From contig JAPPFH010000023.1 in the NCBI GenBank assembly GCA_028875185.1, positions 34,866-98,865 of the forward strand: 64,000 nucleotides of DNA, given 5' to 3'. This DNA comes from Chloroflexota bacterium. Lineage in GTDB: Bacteria > Chloroflexota > Anaerolineae > Aggregatilineales > Phototrophicaceae. Under the pieces are notes generated by a model. It was not told where the DNA came from, made no database searches, and was given only the letters and a program-made list of their open reading frames with translations. Position numbers and translations under genes: made by a program. Positions 13,662 to 21,445 of the stretch are shown in pieces (position 1 is the stretch's first letter; each line of letters opens with the position of its first letter).

Positions 13662-14510
13662 TCAGCCACAGCCCCCGCGCAGCACCTTGCGATGATACCG
13701 GCTGACGAAACCGGTCTTGCCTTCGAATTCAATCTTGTACCAGAAGCCGCTGATCTGGAGCGCAGGCACCTCGGAATTCTGCCAGACCAAGCCGATGATT
13801 TCGCCGGCTGGATGGTCGCGCAAGAAGAGCGTCTCGAGAAGTTTGATCATGCAGCCGTCCAGCGGGATGCCATTAATTGAGGGCAGCGCGTCCGCTTCCG
13901 GTGTTGCTGGCGGAGCTGATTCCGGAGGCATGTCGGATTGCAGCAGCACCACAGTGCCGGCGCCGTAGATCGCGCCACAAGTCATGCCGTCGCGCTCATA
14001 GGCTTCCAGCTCAACCAACATCCGCGGCGAGTGTTTGGCATCGAAAAAGACGAAGCTGCCGTATTCTTGGAAGCACACTTCCAAACCTGGGGGGACGTTG
14101 CCCCAAACATCCACAGCGTCCAAAAACTTTGGTCGGAGCCTGTCTGATTGGCTGATGCCCCTTGCGCCCACCATTTGGCATTGCGTGGATGGTAAATAAT
14201 CAAAGACGGTTACATGGGATGGCAGGTAGCGGCAAGTCGACCCTGTGATGCGATCGCTGCTCGCTGCTTTGCTGCCGCTTCCGCTATCGGCGCTGTGATC
14301 CCGCTCGCCACTTCCCGAGTCTCCCGAGCTGCTCGGCCTATCCTCGTCCGGCTCTTGGGGGCAAAACTCCTGCTGGCCCAAAAAGCATTGGTCCGCATCG
14401 GAGAGCGTATCCTGCGTCAGCGCCGGCAGCGCCGCGATGAGCAGCAGCGCAACCATAAAGCCGCAACGCAGCGCCGCGCAAGTTAAGCGCATGACAGAAT
14501 TATTATTCAT
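13662..14510 (-). CDS. Secreted protein with conserved Cys-containing module and C-terminal SH3-like domain
   Basis: A signal peptide (hydrophobic CGFMVALLLIAALPALT) is followed by a Ser/Gly/Asp-rich linker at about 50-90. Next comes a ~110-residue module with CRYLP, AVDVWGNVPPGLEVCF, FFDAKHSPRML and GTVVLLQSD, and then an SH3b-like domain (LFLRDHPAGEIIGLVWQNSEVPAL... WYKIEFEGKTGFVSRYH). SH3b domains commonly bind cell-wall or surface material. The same module-plus-SH3 order recurs at the end of the beta-helix protein at 44381-46414. ATG at 14510 has GGAGACTTCAA upstream and is preferred to an upstream in-frame start at 14537. Confidence 0.65.
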   Translation of the reverse strand: MNNNSVMRLTCAALRCGFMVALLLIAALPALTQDTLSDADQCFLGQQEFCPQEPDEDRPSSSGDSGSGERDHSADSGSGSKAASSDRITGSTCRYLPSHVTVFDYLPSTQCQMVGARGISQSDRLRPKFLDAVDVWGNVPPGLEVCFQEYGSFVFFDAKHSPRMLVELEAYERDGMTCGAIYGAGTVVLLQSDMPPESAPPATPEADALPSINGIPLDGCMIKLLETLFLRDHPAGEIIGLVWQNSEVPALQISGFWYKIEFEGKTGFVSRYHRKVLRGGCG

Positions 14511-14671
14511 TTGAAGTCTCCCTACTGTAGGAATCATATTCCACTCTAGTTTTGAATGCGGATTTCGGCAACAATTTTAGTGTTGCCTTTGCCAAATCCG
14601 ACAGAAGCGGCCGCGGCGGCAAAGCCTGCGCCAAGGGTTGGCGGCGTCGATTGCGCCTGGCGTCGCGCCGC

Positions 14672-14699
14672 TTGCGATTTCCTGGCAATTGGTTATACT
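14672..14699 (+). promoter_or_regulatory. Candidate promoter of the selenoprotein gene
   Basis: TTGCGA, a 16-base spacer and TATACT lie 40 bases before the selenoprotein ATG. The same -35 hexamer is used by the candidate promoter at 47345. Confidence 0.5.
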
Positions 14700-14739
14700 T
14701 GGGGCATCGGCCGCTGTATCGATTAGAAAGGATCCTATC

Positions 14740-15033
14740 ATGCAAGAGGGTGGAATGGATATTGTCGTCAAGTATTGCGCGACTTGAGGACACCAACCCA
14801 ATGCCGTCAGTTTGACGGACGAAATTCTGAACGAACGTGAAATCGAATACTTTATCAGCAGTTGGACCTTGATTCCGAGCACCGGCGGCGTCTTTGATGT
14901 CACGGTGAATGGAGAGCTGGTTTTCTCCAAGCACGAGGTAGGCCGTCATGCGGAGCCGGGTGAAGTGCGCGCCGGTATCTTAAAGGCGCTGGAAACCGTC
15001 CGCCCCGCCGATTCCGAGCTTGTCAGCAAGTAA
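14740..15033 (+). CDS. Rdx/SelW-family selenoprotein (in-frame UGA = selenocysteine)
   Basis: Read through TGA at 14785-14787, the gene gives 97 residues. It opens with a beta strand (MDIVVKY) followed by Cys13-Ala-Thr-Sec16 (KYCATU), the CxxU redox motif of SelW/Rdx thioredoxin-like proteins. It continues with the family's LIPSTGGVFDVTVNGELVF and the C-terminal EPGEVRAGILKAL. The frame is continuous on both sides of the TGA, and the part after the TGA has no ATG start of its own (only a TTG at 14812). AAAGGA lies 7 bases before the ATG. A 6-bp hairpin follows the TGA at SECIS distance and an intrinsic terminator follows the gene. A redox role is known for the family; the partner is unknown. 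Confidence 0.85.
14804..14818 (+). promoter_or_regulatory. Candidate bacterial SECIS hairpin
   Basis: CCGTCA-GTT-TGACGG forms a perfect 6-bp stem with a 3-base loop containing G. The loop starts 22 bases after the UGA, within the spacing expected for SelB-binding bacterial SECIS elements. It lies inside the coding sequence. Confidence 0.7.
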
Positions 15034-15078
15034 CACTCCGCGCTTTGCGAATTTGAATTCGCAACTCGCCAATTATCG

Positions 15079-15120
15079 AAAACCGCGCCGTCAAGCGCAA
15101 GTTGGCGGGCGGTTTTTCTT
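15079..15120 (+). terminator. Intrinsic terminator after the selenoprotein gene
   Basis: AACCGC-GCC pairs with GGC-GGGCGGTT around a loop of about 14 bases, followed by TTTTTCTTT. Confidence 0.75.
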
Positions 15121-15265
15121 TGGGACAAGCCCGGCAATTGCTTGGCAGTCAAGCGCTTATGTTGTAGACTAAAGGTGTGGAAACTGCTGACGCGGGTTCT
15201 AACGCGGTTCGTGTTCAGCATAGAAGTGCCAGTCAATTTATACTCCCAAAGGAGGGTGGTTCAAA

Positions 15266-16303
15266 ATGAAACGTCTTGTATTGGTAGCGCTACTTATCTT
15301 TGCCGTGCTTGTCGTCAGCTCTGGGCTTGCGGCGGCGCAGGACGGGCACATCGTCCAGCGCATTCGCGACCGCGGGGAATTGATCTGTGGCGTGAACTCG
15401 GTACTGCCGGGCTTCGGCACACAGAATGACGCCGGCGATTTTGAAGGATTTGATGTCGACATTTGCCGCGCAGTCGCCGCCGCGATACTGGGCGACGCCA
15501 ACGCGATTGCATTCCGCCCGCTTGCCGCTGCCGAGCGCCCGACCGCCTTGGCCAGTGGCGAGATTGACATGCTCAGCCGCAACACCACCTGGACGCTCAG
15601 CCGTGATACCGAATGGGGCGCCACCTTTGGTCCCACGACCTTCTATGATGGTCAGGGCATCATGGTCAAGATCGACTTTGGCGTCAGCACCATTGACGAG
15701 CTCGGAGAAGAAAGCATCGTCATGTGCGCCACTGCCGGCACCACCACCGAACTGAACATTACGGACAAAGCCAACGCGCTCGGCGCCGATTGGGAACTGA
15801 ATACATTCCCCGACTTCGACGCCATTATGGATGCCTACGAAGCTGGCGCCTGCGACGCCTTCACCAGCGACATCAGCAGCTTGGTCTCGCGCAAAGCCAC
15901 CTCGGCTGATCCGGCCGCGCATGTGATTCTGCCGGGCGCCATCAGCAAGGAGCCTCTGGGGCCGGTCAGCCCGCAGAACGACGCCAACTTCGCCGACATT
16001 ATCCGCTGGGTGGTGTGGGGATTGTTGACCGCGGAAGAATTCGGCATCGACAGCATGAACATCGGCGATTACATGGATAGCGATGACGCCGGAATCGGGC
16101 GCCTGCTTGGCTTGGGCGACAATGTGGCCGGCGACTACCTCGGCATCAACGATCAGTTCATGGTTGACGTGATCACGCAGATGGGCAACTACGGCGAGAT
16201 CTTTGATCGCAACCTGGGTCCGGATACGATCTTCGGCCTGGAACGCGGATTCAACGACCTGTGGACGAACGGCGGCTTGATGTACGCGGCGCCCTTCCGT
16301 TAA
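15266..16303 (+). CDS. aapJ: General L-amino acid ABC transporter, substrate-binding protein
   Basis: The 345-residue protein has a cleavable signal peptide (MKRLVLVALLIFAVLVVSSGLAAAQ). The mature part matches AapJ-type binding proteins: LICGVNSVLPGFG, GFDVDICRAVAAA, SGEIDMLSRNTTWTLSRDTEWG and YDGQGIMV. It captures amino acids outside the membrane and delivers them to the AapQM permeases. AAAGGAGGGTGG gives a very strong ribosome-binding site. A terminator directly after the gene, before the permeases, would let this component be made in excess. No lipobox Cys is present, so in a monoderm-like envelope its retention would need another anchor. Confidence 0.92.
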   Translation: MKRLVLVALLIFAVLVVSSGLAAAQDGHIVQRIRDRGELICGVNSVLPGFGTQNDAGDFEGFDVDICRAVAAAILGDANAIAFRPLAAAERPTALASGEIDMLSRNTTWTLSRDTEWGATFGPTTFYDGQGIMVKIDFGVSTIDELGEESIVMCATAGTTTELNITDKANALGADWELNTFPDFDAIMDAYEAGACDAFTSDISSLVSRKATSADPAAHVILPGAISKEPLGPVSPQNDANFADIIRWVVWGLLTAEEFGIDSMNIGDYMDSDDAGIGRLLGLGDNVAGDYLGINDQFMVDVITQMGNYGEIFDRNLGPDTIFGLERGFNDLWTNGGLMYAAPFR

Positions 16304-16542: not shown

Positions 16543-18057
16543 ATGGCGATCAAATCACAAGCCCAACAAGCGAGTATCCTGCCGACGATGTTGCGCGATG
16601 GGCGCATCTTGCAGGGCATCGCCCAGATCATCTTTGTCGTCATTGTGGTAATTGTCCTCAACGATTTGCAGACGCGCATCAATACCGCGCTGGAATCGAC
16701 CAATCAATCGCCAAACTTCGAATTTCTGCAGAATCGCGCCGGCTTCAGCTTGGCGGACTCCGGCAGTTATTCCTCAAACGATCGCTACATTGACGCCTTT
16801 GAAGTCGGTTTTATCAATACTTTGCGCGTCGTCTTGCTGGGTCTGGTGTCTACGACTGTCATCGGCATCTTGGCTGGCATATTTCTTTTGAGTCGAAACT
16901 TCTTGCTGCGGACGATTTCGCGCGCCTACGTCGAGGTCTTGCGCAATACGCCGATCTTGTTGCAGATCATTGCCTGGTATTTCATCGTGATGCTGTCCTT
17001 GCCGCAGCAGCAGGAATCGATCGCCTTTCCCCGCGAGGGCGTGCGCAGCCTCCCGCTGCTCCAATATGCGCTATCGCTGGTCGTTATCCTGGTCATCTGG
17101 CAATACGGCGGGACCTTGCGGCGCCCAGCCTGGCGGATGCTCGTGCGCGAGGCTGGTATCGCCATCGTCGTGCTGGTCAATCTATTGGGCATTGGTCTGG
17201 TTGGCGCCGGCACGCCAATTGAGTTTCACCCCGGCATCTACATCAGCATCAAGGGCGTCGCTATTTTCGAGCTGATTCCCTCATCGCTCTTTGGCGTCTG
17301 GATGGTCTTCATCGTGATCGGCGCGGTGGTCGCAATGGCGCTGTCGCGTTATTTCGCCTTCATCACCGAGAGCACCGGTCAGCCAATCCCGCGGACGCGC
17401 TTCGCCATTGCCGCGTTCATCGGATTTGTACTGCTGGGTTGGGTCATTGTGGGCATGCGGCCCACGCCGGCAGCGCTAAACGTCTACGATGACGAAGCCG
17501 GCGCCTCGATGGAAATGGAATACGAGGACGCCTTTGAATCCGGCTTGCTGACGATAGAGCAAGAGCTGGAGTATACGCGGCAGCCGCTCCTGTTCCGCCC
17601 GCCAACGCTGGATCGACGCGGGCGCAACATCGAAACCGGCATTGAATTCTCGCCCAACTATCTTGCCGTCTTTCTGGGACTGGTGATTTATACATCAGCA
17701 TTCATCGCTGAAATCGTGCGGGCGGGCATCCAGGCGGTGCCCAAGGGCCAGTTGGAAGCTTCGCGCGCTTTGGGGCTCTCGCAAACCGATATGCTGCGTC
17801 TCATCATTTTGCCGCAGGCGCTGCGCGTTATCATCCCGCCGCTGGGCAATCAATTTCTAAATCTCTCAAAGAATTCCAGCCTCGCGATCGCCGTGGCTTA
17901 CACCGATATCTATCAAGTGACATTCACGATTATCAATCAGTCGGGGCAGTCGGTCACCGGCATTGTAATGGTCATGCTCTCATATCTGCTCATAAGCCTG
18001 TGCATTTCGCTGCTGATGAACGTGATCAATCAGCGCTATCAGTTGGTGACGAGGTAA
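16543..18057 (+). CDS. aapQ: General L-amino acid ABC transporter, permease (first)
   Basis: A 504-residue HisM/GlnQ-type permease, longer than the ~400 residues usual for AapQ. The N-terminal transmembrane helix is followed by an extracytoplasmic segment and the first BPD_transp_1 half (VEVLRNTPILLQIIAWYF). The EAA loop is near the C-terminus (EASRALGLSQTDMLRLIILPQALRVIIPPLGN), where it contacts the ATPase. A polar, acidic stretch (about residues 320-365) between transmembrane helices accounts for part of the extra length. It pairs with AapM in the membrane. The stop is 7 bases before the next start. Confidence 0.88.
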   Translation: MAIKSQAQQASILPTMLRDGRILQGIAQIIFVVIVVIVLNDLQTRINTALESTNQSPNFEFLQNRAGFSLADSGSYSSNDRYIDAFEVGFINTLRVVLLGLVSTTVIGILAGIFLLSRNFLLRTISRAYVEVLRNTPILLQIIAWYFIVMLSLPQQQESIAFPREGVRSLPLLQYALSLVVILVIWQYGGTLRRPAWRMLVREAGIAIVVLVNLLGIGLVGAGTPIEFHPGIYISIKGVAIFELIPSSLFGVWMVFIVIGAVVAMALSRYFAFITESTGQPIPRTRFAIAAFIGFVLLGWVIVGMRPTPAALNVYDDEAGASMEMEYEDAFESGLLTIEQELEYTRQPLLFRPPTLDRRGRNIETGIEFSPNYLAVFLGLVIYTSAFIAEIVRAGIQAVPKGQLEASRALGLSQTDMLRLIILPQALRVIIPPLGNQFLNLSKNSSLAIAVAYTDIYQVTFTIINQSGQSVTGIVMVMLSYLLISLCISLLMNVINQRYQLVTR

Positions 18058-18064
18058 GCCGCGG

Positions 18065-21000
18065 ATGTCGGATCAGATGAACGCCGAGGCGGGACAGTCG
18101 ATCATCCATTTCGATGATGAGCCGGCGCGTCCGCCGCCGACGCTTGAAGTGGGTCTGGCCGGCTGGGCGCGGCAGAACCTCTTCAATTCGCCCGTCGACA
18201 TTGTCATCACCGTTGTTACTTCCGTGCTTATCCTGGGTCTGCTCGTTGGCTTTTTCGATTGGGCGATTCGCTCCGCCAACTGGTTCGCCATAATCAACAA
18301 TCAACGTCTTTTCATGATGTTGTCCTACGAGCCGATCTTTGAATGGCGGCTCACGCTGACGGTCTTGCTGGCTGCTATCTTGACCGGCTTTAGCCTGGCG
18401 GCTTGGGCGCGCCGATCTGTCGTTCGCGTTCTTGCCATAATCGCCTTGGTCGTTGTCGTGGTCGTCGGTGTTGCGCCGCCGCTTATTGAAGCGACAATCA
18501 AGCAACCGCGCTCGTACTTCACCGCTGGCAATGTCGATATTGTCGACCGCGCCACCGCTCTAACGCCACAGCCTGAATTAGCCTTCATCGCGCAAGCCGG
18601 CGAGCGAGTGACCGTGAGCCTGGCGCTTGATGAAGTTGTCGATATCGAAACGCTGAGCCGGCTCGCGGGCTTTTCCGATCGTGGATCGAACGCCCTGGGC
18701 AACGCCGCCCTCAATCGACTTGAACAGCGCGCGAAAACCGGCGAAACCTTCGATCAAATGGCCAGCGGCGAATTGACCGAGTCGCTCGAAGAACGCGCGC
18801 GGCTGAATATCCGCACCTTCACCCGCACCAATGATATGCTGGCATCGACCGCGGACACTGTCGCCCATATGGGTGGCTTGCTCGCCACCTCCGGAGCGGA
18901 AGTGGGCGAGCTGCGCTATTGGCTCGGACGTTTGGAGCGCGCCGCTACGGGCATGGACCCGCGCGCGGACGTTGTGTTGGGGCAGGCGGAAGCGGTTGAC
19001 GACTCGGTAAAGAATCTGTCGGTCAACGATGCGATTCCGGCTGATCTGCGGCCCGCGATTGAAGCGTTGACCGCCACGCTACTGGCGAGCGAGCAATTGG
19101 AAGACCTGGGAGTACTGCTCGTCGTGCAGCTGTCGGAAGATTTCATCGGCAAGCCGGACCAATCCAATGACGATGAGGCGCTGATTAAGCCTTCGCCGCG
19201 TGAAGCCGCCTTCCTGCAGGATATGTTTGCGCGCTTGCTGACGCCCCAATCAGTGCTGGATTTGTACCAGCTCGGTCAGACCCCGATGGCGATCGCCATC
19301 CTGGACGCCAGTTCGCTGGAGCCGCTGGCTGAAGCTGTCTTGCATGGGGCGGGAGACAGCGTCTCATACGATATTCCGCGCGATGGCTGGTACATCCTCA
19401 GCAAGAACGCGGCGGAGGGCGAAGAAGGCAGCACCATTTTAGCCGCATCCGGCATCTACCCGATCGTTGAGCGCACGCTCAGCGCCACCGAATCGCAATT
19501 TGCCCGCCTGACCGACAACGAGTTGGTCGTCACCGATAGCCGGCCGATGCGCGACGGCAAGACGATACCCGTCGCCGTCTTGATCGACAATCAGTTCCGC
19601 GGTCGCCGCGATTTGCAGACCTATCTTATCCATTTCATCCCACCGTTTTTTGAGCAGGTCGAGGCGTTGCTGATTCCCTTCCTAATCACTGTCGCCTGGG
19701 GCTTCATCCTGGGGCGCGCGGCCGCCCATCTGCTGGGCGAGAAGTCAGTCTTCAATGACAATGGCAGTCGTGTCCGGGTCTTGGCTTGGTCGCTGACGCC
19801 GCTGCTTATCCTGCTTATGTACTTTGCTTTGCTTGACGGCGCCGGCGTGGTGTTGCATATCGCCGCTGCCTTTGGCGCTGTGCTAGCGGTTCGCTGGGCT
19901 GAAGCCTGGCTCAACCTGCGCAATCAGGGCGAGGATGCCGAAGGCTCAACCAATCGCCTGCTGATCTATGGCTGGGGCGCCTTTCCCCTAATCATGTTCG
20001 GTTTGGCATCGGGCATCGGCGGGCTTTCCGGCGCGACGCTCGGCAGCATGATTGGCGGTCTGTTCTGGCTGCTCCTGATGTATTTCGTCGGTCTCAGCTA
20101 CAGGGGAACGCTCGGTTTCGCCCTGCTGGTGGGCGGCTTCTTCTTGCAAATCGCGCAAGCTTTCTTGATCAATCTGGTTTGGGACGGCTGGTATAGCGAT
20201 CCTTCATTCGCAATACTGCTCTGGCTGGCGCTTGCCGCCATCGGCGTTGTGGCCGGCATCGGCGGCGCTCGATTGAATGGCGCGCTGGATATGAGGATCA
20301 AACGAACTGGTTTCTTGATCGGCTGCGTCTCCTTCGCCTTTGCGCTCTTCGATACCAATGTCGTTTCAGCGACCGCGGGCAATTCGACGGTGACGATGGC
20401 GAGCGCCGCCTTCTTATTGTGGATCGTCTGGATGTTCTTCAGTGGCGCCACCAAGTGGACCGCGAATCGGATCCTCATCGGCTTGCTGCTGCTGACATTC
20501 TTGTGGATGCAGACTTTCACCGCGGTTGATCGCTGGTCGACCATCTATTTTGTCATTTGGCTTGCTGGCGGGGTCGCCGTCTTCAAGCGCGGGCAAGCGG
20601 CGCAGTTGGACAAACGAGCAGAGCCGGGCGCGCGCGGCGTTTGGCTCGCCCATCGCTACCCGCTGCACAGCATGGCGGCATCGGCTGTGGCTTGGCTGGC
20701 CGCCTTGTGGATCATCCCCAGCATCATCAGCGGCTTGGGCGCGCAGGGCGCCTTGCAGGCATCGCCCGATGACCTGCTGCCGCTTTCGGACAAGCGGCTT
20801 TGGGGCGGCCTTATGATCACCATGCAGCTTACCGTGCTCGGCATCGCAGCCTCTTTCCCAATCGGTCTGGCGCTGGCGCTGGGGCGGCGCAGCCGGCTGG
20901 CGGTTGTCAAATACACCTGCATTCTCTACATTGAGCTGGTGCGCGGCGTACCCTTGATTACGATTCTGTTTCTGGCATCGCTGCTTGTGCCGCTGGTGGA

Positions 21001-21445
21001 CCCCAATCTGGCGGCGATTGACCAAGCGGTGCGCGCTTGGGTAGCCTTCACCATGTTTAGCGCCGCCTACCTGGCGGAGAATGTGCGCGGCGGCTTGCAG
21101 TCGCTCGATCGCGGCCAGACCGAAGCGGCGCAAGCCATTGGCTTATCGCATTGGCAGACGACGATATTCATCTTGCTGCCCCAAGCTTTGCGCGCGGTGA
21201 TCCCGGCGCTTGTCGGGCAGTTCATCTCGCTGTTCAAAGACACATCGCTGGTATTCATCGTTGGCTTGGCTGATATCCTGGGCGTCGCCTCGCGCGTGGT
21301 GGCGCAGGCGGAATTCTTGCAGAAGCGCCAGGAAACGTTCTTATACGTGGCGATCCTGTTCTTTGTTTTCAGCTACATCATGTCTTATATCAGCCGACGG
21401 ATAGAAGCGACTGGCTCGGGGGCATATCGAGCGCAAGAGCTCTGA
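18065..21445 (+). CDS. aapM: General L-amino acid ABC transporter, giant permease (second)
   Basis: 1126 residues, about three times the usual AapM. Residues ~912-1126 are a standard permease domain: LWGGLMITMQLTVLGIA, YIELVRGVPLITILF and the EAA loop AAQAIGLSHWQTTIFILLPQALRAVIP. In front of it lie transmembrane helices at about 45-75, 95-115 and 120-142. A ~370-residue extracytoplasmic domain (about 146-518) then follows, and a set of roughly ten further hydrophobic helices up to ~890. No frameshift or internal stop is seen, and the permease domain is in frame. The function of the N-terminal three quarters is unknown. It lies between aapQ and the ATPase gene in a tight operon. Confidence 0.85.
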   Translation: MSDQMNAEAGQSIIHFDDEPARPPPTLEVGLAGWARQNLFNSPVDIVITVVTSVLILGLLVGFFDWAIRSANWFAIINNQRLFMMLSYEPIFEWRLTLTVLLAAILTGFSLAAWARRSVVRVLAIIALVVVVVVGVAPPLIEATIKQPRSYFTAGNVDIVDRATALTPQPELAFIAQAGERVTVSLALDEVVDIETLSRLAGFSDRGSNALGNAALNRLEQRAKTGETFDQMASGELTESLEERARLNIRTFTRTNDMLASTADTVAHMGGLLATSGAEVGELRYWLGRLERAATGMDPRADVVLGQAEAVDDSVKNLSVNDAIPADLRPAIEALTATLLASEQLEDLGVLLVVQLSEDFIGKPDQSNDDEALIKPSPREAAFLQDMFARLLTPQSVLDLYQLGQTPMAIAILDASSLEPLAEAVLHGAGDSVSYDIPRDGWYILSKNAAEGEEGSTILAASGIYPIVERTLSATESQFARLTDNELVVTDSRPMRDGKTIPVAVLIDNQFRGRRDLQTYLIHFIPPFFEQVEALLIPFLITVAWGFILGRAAAHLLGEKSVFNDNGSRVRVLAWSLTPLLILLMYFALLDGAGVVLHIAAAFGAVLAVRWAEAWLNLRNQGEDAEGSTNRLLIYGWGAFPLIMFGLASGIGGLSGATLGSMIGGLFWLLLMYFVGLSYRGTLGFALLVGGFFLQIAQAFLINLVWDGWYSDPSFAILLWLALAAIGVVAGIGGARLNGALDMRIKRTGFLIGCVSFAFALFDTNVVSATAGNSTVTMASAAFLLWIVWMFFSGATKWTANRILIGLLLLTFLWMQTFTAVDRWSTIYFVIWLAGGVAVFKRGQAAQLDKRAEPGARGVWLAHRYPLHSMAASAVAWLAALWIIPSIISGLGAQGALQASPDDLLPLSDKRLWGGLMITMQLTVLGIAASFPIGLALALGRRSRLAVVKYTCILYIELVRGVPLITILFLASLLVPLVDPNLAAIDQAVRAWVAFTMFSAAYLAENVRGGLQSLDRGQTEAAQAIGLSHWQTTIFILLPQALRAVIPALVGQFISLFKDTSLVFIVGLADILGVASRVVAQAEFLQKRQETFLYVAILFFVFSYIMSYISRRIEATGSGAYRAQEL

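Follow-up and report, generated by a model that had tools for sequence, protein, structure and literature searches.

Bacterial SelW-like selenoproteins with a CxxU motif had been described by 2005-2008 (PMC1088965, PMC1794560, PMC2398784). In two marine surveys, those of the Sargasso Sea (PMC1088965) and GOS (PMC2398784), the SelW-like family was the most abundant selenoprotein family, the latter survey counting 427 Sec and 56 Cys forms, and it is named first, at 11.3%, in a 2021 marine survey (PMC9402790). SelW was reported to have few Cys homologues in Sec-using organisms in a study that also lists three Chloroflexi selenoproteins (PMC1794560), and formate dehydrogenases of Anaerolineales single cells have been annotated with selenocysteine (PMC4959059). 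The parts of the literature consulted on SelW and selenoproteins in Chloroflexota, Anaerolineae and sponges contained no obvious description of SelW in this lineage. In a published model of the bacterial SECIS element, the stem has 4-16 bp and the loop 3-9 nt, with a G in its first two positions; 16-37 nt lie between UGA and loop, and the minimum free energy (MFE) is <= -7.5 kcal/mol (PMC13188914).

The window analyzed here is a stretch of 64,000 nucleotides from a Chloroflexota bacterium (contig JAPPFH010000023.1, assembly GCA_028875185.1), the source genome comprising 4.37 Mb in 158 contigs and being 93.8% complete. It carries what is, with very little doubt, the gene of a complete SelW-like (Rdx family) selenoprotein whose TGA is read as selenocysteine (Table 1). 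A preliminary description of this DNA had proposed a frame that runs from an ATG through one TGA into an Rdx C-terminus and includes the motif C-A-T-U. Translation bore this out, since a single frame leads from ATG 14740 through the TGA to TAA 15031-15033 and its 97-residue product, with TGA translated as selenocysteine, begins MQEGGMDIVVKYCATUGHQP. The Pfam Rdx profile (PF10262) matched residues 8-78 of the read-through product with 55.7 bits (cut-off 22.6), the match starting ahead of the TGA. The mechanical ORF listing contained the 73-residue fragment (TTG 14812 to 15033) that, as the preliminary description had it, would be all that gene callers report, and this fragment alone scored 34.2 bits against 55.7 for the read-through product. 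The word "hidden" used of the gene is therefore fair for naive gene callers, although the family itself is not new. NCBIfam TIGR02174 (CXXU_selWTH) matched with 45.6 bits, above its cut-off of 34.2, and the narrower equivalog NF041051 (SelTWH_Campy) with 71.3 bits, under its cut-off of 88.

Table 1. Features of the SelW-like locus (window positions).
Feature	Position	Strand	Basis
Sigma-70-type promoter-like site, TTGCGA-16-TATACT	14672..14699	+	consensus scan, 9/12
Probable ribosome-binding site, AAAGGA	14727..14732	+	sequence
selW-like selenoprotein gene, 97 residues and TAA stop, internal TGA = selenocysteine	14740..15033	+	translation, Pfam/NCBIfam profiles, start residues
CxxU redox motif, C-A-T-U	14776..14787	+	Cys codon TGC 14776-14778, Sec codon TGA 14785-14787
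Predicted bacterial SECIS hairpin, 6-bp stem CCGTCA/TGACGG, loop GTT 14810-14812	14804..14818	+	spacing, folding, conservation
Intrinsic-terminator-like hairpin, then T-rich tail	15088..15108	+	sequence scan

The solved relatives recovered by sequence search were SelW-related proteins: 2fa8 (E 2.4e-7), 3dex, human C17orf37 (2ljk), 2p0g, 2obk and mouse SelW (2npb, E 0.013). An AlphaFold model based on 20 aligned sequences (mean pLDDT 78.3, pTM 0.71) has a strand at residues 6-13 followed by the motif at 13-16, predicting a thioredoxin-like fold with CxxU after the first strand. Foldseek comparison of this model returned the SelW-related structures 2fa8, 3dex, 2obk, 2p0g and mouse SelW 2npb, with a best E of 5.7e-8.

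The codon at the selenocysteine position was compared across a sample of 298 genomes of the class, and 129 of these had an Rdx match. The 134 matched Rdx copies, the window's included, comprised 128 CxxU copies with TGA, from 126 genomes, and six CxxC copies with TGT or TGC. Relatives with Cys in place of U, which the preliminary description had suggested looking for, are thus present, and the in-frame UGA stands at exactly the position held by Cys or Sec in homologues, and the sequences show exchange between Sec and Cys at this codon. A pseudogene, in which a point mutation made a stop of the second Cys codon of an ordinary CxxC Rdx protein, is extremely unlikely: the TGA is kept in 128 of the 134 class copies and in all 28 named Chloroflexota loci (L154-L181), and the differences from the nearest same-genus copy (L051) fall mostly at third codon positions (4, 3 and 18 at positions 1, 2 and 3). 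Two points would suit a pseudogene, the use of TGT/TGC, one base away from TGA, by the six CxxC homologues and the truncation that gene callers would report, but the conservation of the TGA contradicts it.

A scan of named genomes gave 33 loci, 32 with TGA and one with a Cys codon at the same place. Twenty-eight of them (L154-L181) are from Chloroflexota or Anaerolineae MAGs, and all 28 have TGA in CxxU and the CCGTCA-GTT-TGACGG hairpin, with loop GTC in L178; some of their isolate names suggest sponge sources. TGA is likewise present in four Acidimicrobiia/Actinomycetota MAGs, whose sequence differs at the place of the hairpin, and one Thermomicrobiales MAG has Cys. The TGA-containing SelW genes of the four Acidimicrobiia/Actinomycetota MAGs (L182-L185) were 41-49% identical in the best segment, and possibly reflect transfer between phyla.

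The preliminary description held that the organism makes selenocysteine, and the genes on which this depends, selA, selB, selC and selD, were all found in the source genome. The tRNA-Sec (selC) scored 70.7 bits and was confirmed by ARAGORN with a UCA anticodon; selB scored 337 bits, selA 558 bits, and selD 377 bits with one in-frame TGA. Judged from its gene content, the organism is able to make selenocysteine. Three further tRNA-Sec-like matches in this genome (L002-L004) were tRNA-Ser by ARAGORN. The selD gene (L063, G000:C116:52645-55580, minus strand) encodes CAGUASKLSP near its N-terminus, with a hairpin just downstream of its TGA; because of the in-frame TGA (CAGUASK), selD itself is probably also a selenoprotein. 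An organism-wide change of the genetic code, with TGA standing for an ordinary amino acid, would agree with the in-frame TGA of two genes here (the SelW-like gene and selD), but it has next to no probability, since TGA ends 9 of the 41 long non-overlapping ORFs of the window and the in-frame TGA sits where homologues have Cys, in a genome with Sec machinery.

Across the class, selA (E <= 1e-60) was detected in 249 of 298 genomes; among the 126 TGA genomes the figure was 119 (Fisher p 7e-6). In all seven TGA genomes without a selA match (G002, G047, G132, G188, G205, G225 and G290; six 77-86% complete, G002 92%), selB was over the curated cut-off, and therefore no TGA genome lacked both. A tRNA-Sec of at least 66 bits was present in five of these seven; in G205 nothing matched tRNA-Sec at E <= 1e-7, and ARAGORN identified the 46-bit hit of G132 as tRNA-Arg. 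Wherever checked with ARAGORN, tRNA-Sec matches of about 40-51 bits were other tRNAs, that of G083 being tRNA-Ser.

Three genomes had the Cys form only (G146, G135 and G153). Two of them, G135 and G153, have selA, indicating that the Cys form does not depend on loss of the machinery. The third, G146, belongs to the same family as the window and has C-A-P-C; no selA (E <= 1e-60) and no selB over the cut-off were found in it, and its tRNA-Sec-like match (50.5 bits, above the Rfam cut-off) was tRNA-Ser by ARAGORN. In a tree of 46 of the 134 Rdx copies, the Cys copy of G146 grouped with the copies of its own family with support 93/88, under the program's starred level. In genome G252 a Sec copy occurs alongside a Cys paralogue (L058, G252:C1:71901-82116), and this paralogue grouped with a Sec copy of another family (100/97), suggesting transfer plus a Sec-to-Cys change in an organism still having selA. 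Genome G222, of the same order, has a real tRNA-Sec (L188, G222:C15:49150-49442; 76 bits, UCA anticodon), with no selA (E <= 1e-60), no selB over the cut-off and no Rdx match.

The hairpin was located where the preliminary description had placed a 6-bp stem with a G-containing loop: it begins with the 17th base past the TGA, so that 16 nt separate the TGA from the stem and 22 nt separate it from the loop. With a 3-nt loop (GTT), a 6-bp stem, the 22-nt spacing and an MFE of -8.6 and -8.8 kcal/mol for 48- and 38-nt stretches, it lies within the limits of the published SECIS model (PMC13188914). By itself the window hairpin is weak, non-significant evidence: shuffle z-scores for four stretches were -0.6, +1.0, -1.5 and -1.0, 5.7% of synonymous redraws equalled its score, and a comparable hairpin followed 9 of the 2045 TGA trinucleotides on both strands of the window. 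An Rfam scan of 14600-15200 at E <= 10 matched no family. A search of the inter-ORF gaps of the window for TGA-interrupted frames with a SECIS-like hairpin gave five candidates, this gene and four others; the four, with no Pfam match at E <= 0.01, were taken as chance.

It is conservation across relatives that decides. Of the 128 TGA copies, 116 had a strong hairpin with G in its loop after the TGA, where synonymous redraws gave an expectation of 28.9, and a stem of at least 5 bp with a loop G was present in some register in 125 of 128, with the loop starting 14-28 nt after the TGA (22 nt in 77 copies); a stem of at least 4 bp in the exact register of the window was absent from 48 of the 128. 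The folding-energy gain over synonymous redraws peaked in the 36-nt segments 1 and 4 codons past the TGA (-2.2 and -1.7 kcal/mol), the mean gain in the remaining segments being between -1.1 and +0.5 kcal/mol. In the six Cys copies, too small a set to weigh, the values were -1.5 and -0.7 at those two segments and down to -1.7 elsewhere. In the register of the window, the six stem positions all paired in the 12 copies of its own family or order (12/12), in two of which both bases of a C-G pair had changed to give T-A; in four of these 12 (L051, L052, L056 and L061) the 51 nt after the TGA had a minimum-energy fold other than the hairpin. Among 97 distinct class sequences 89.9% of cells were paired, against 26-56% with one arm slid by 1-3 nt, and changes on both sides occurred at all six stem pairs, counts that do not represent independent events because related sequences are included. 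These comparisons show conservation of the RNA structure.

Selenium-independent UGA readthrough, whether programmed or leaky, in which the hairpin serves only as a stimulator and a standard amino acid takes position 16, would equally leave the frame open past the UGA with a hairpin downstream. It is nevertheless very improbable: selA or selB was found in each of the 126 TGA genomes, the same-family genome without both (G146) uses Cys, and the hairpin fits the published SECIS rules (PMC13188914).

If the TGA is read as selenocysteine, the ribosome would start at ATG 14740 and reach the UGA, where SelB with Sec-tRNA(Sec) would bind the hairpin and selenocysteine would be inserted instead of termination. 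Translation would then continue to the TAA, giving a thioredoxin-like protein in which the Cys13-x-x-Sec16 pair would be a thiol/selenol redox centre, presumably acting with an electron partner.

The hairpin also appears to constrain the protein sequence. The first base of the loop, which is the middle base of codon +8 from the TGA, was G in 128 of 128 copies, and the residue encoded there was Ser in 68, Arg in 52 and Gly in 8. All 68 Ser codons at this position were AGY and none TCN, whereas from codon +10 on there were 149 AGY and 312 TCN codons. Among the six Cys homologues, the +8 residue is Glu, Ala or Trp. Most likely, the RNA signal restricts the choice of residue at this position. It seems reasonably probable, taking the class as a whole, that SelW is almost always a selenoprotein, that the SECIS dictates codon +8, confined to Ser (AGY only), Arg and Gly by the requirement of the loop for a G, and that G146, which has Cys at the active site and Glu at +8, was freed at both positions in a genome where no Sec machinery was found. 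The class set, with 128 Sec and six Cys copies and G146, offers a natural experiment on an RNA signal constraining a protein.

A promoter and a terminator had been said to frame the gene. Such sites are present, but matches of this kind were just moderately above chance in 14500-15300 on both strands (promoter-like, 2 against 0.6 expected; terminator-like, 4 against 1.2). A TATAAT-like hexamer lies 38-47 nt before the conserved ATG here (40 nt) and in five of seven relatives checked, the spacing in L059 being measured from its upstream ATG, and 71-72 nt away in the other two (L054 and L060). AGGA is 7 nt from the ATG here and 8-9 nt in three same-genus relatives.

About 230 bp past the SelW gene lies a polar-amino-acid ABC transporter binding-protein gene (14740-16303 spans both). 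An amino-acid-type binding-protein gene was downstream in 27 of the 28 named Chloroflexota loci, the exception (L166) being a sequence that ends 333 bases past the gene. Upstream, 26 of the 28 had leuS or a homologue of ORF 13662-14537, and L156 and L180 had neither. In the same family, a binding-protein homologue (35-63% identical) was downstream in G163, G212, G252 and G279 and was not found in the fetched stretch of G019, G146, G178 and G201. A joint function with the transporter, suggested by this synteny, was not adopted, as terminator-like and promoter-like sites intervene; co-transcription is doubtful because the transporter has a promoter-like site of its own ahead of it. At 16543-21445 lie two ABC permease genes of unusual length (504 and 1126 aa), and permease profiles match mainly their C-terminal parts.

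In this Chloroflexota lineage and in most of the Rdx-bearing genomes sampled in the class, the SelW gene encodes Sec and would be truncated by naive calling. The class set further provides conserved neighbours and sequence constraints for testing bacterial SelW function.

The gene resembles known bacterial SelW-like proteins, such as those of Geobacter sulfurreducens and those from the Sargasso Sea and GOS surveys, in its SelW-type family, CxxU motif and in-frame UGA (PMC1088965, PMC2398784, PMC1794560). It also resembles these systems in having a SECIS just 3' of the UGA with a G in a small apical loop, in a family marked by marine abundance and few Cys homologues. By sequence and model, the fold is that of mouse selenoprotein W (2npb) and of the structural-genomics Rdx proteins 2fa8, 3dex, 2obk, 2oka and 2p0g, although 2fa8, the top solved bacterial match, has C-T-Q-C where the window protein has C-A-T-U. 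The eukaryotic SECIS sits in the 3' UTR, unlike the window hairpin. Among bacteria, SelB of E. coli often fails to recognize SECIS elements. Copies of this lineage are distinguished by an M-Q start, common to 11 of the 12 TGA copies of the same family or order (the exception being L061 of G127), and by a middle segment two residues longer than in the five other aligned rows, four from Actinomycetota and one from Thermomicrobiales. No mechanistic difference from the known bacterial SelW-like systems was found, and the gene is almost certainly an ordinary member of a known selenoprotein family in a Chloroflexota genome, genuine and easily missed by gene finders.
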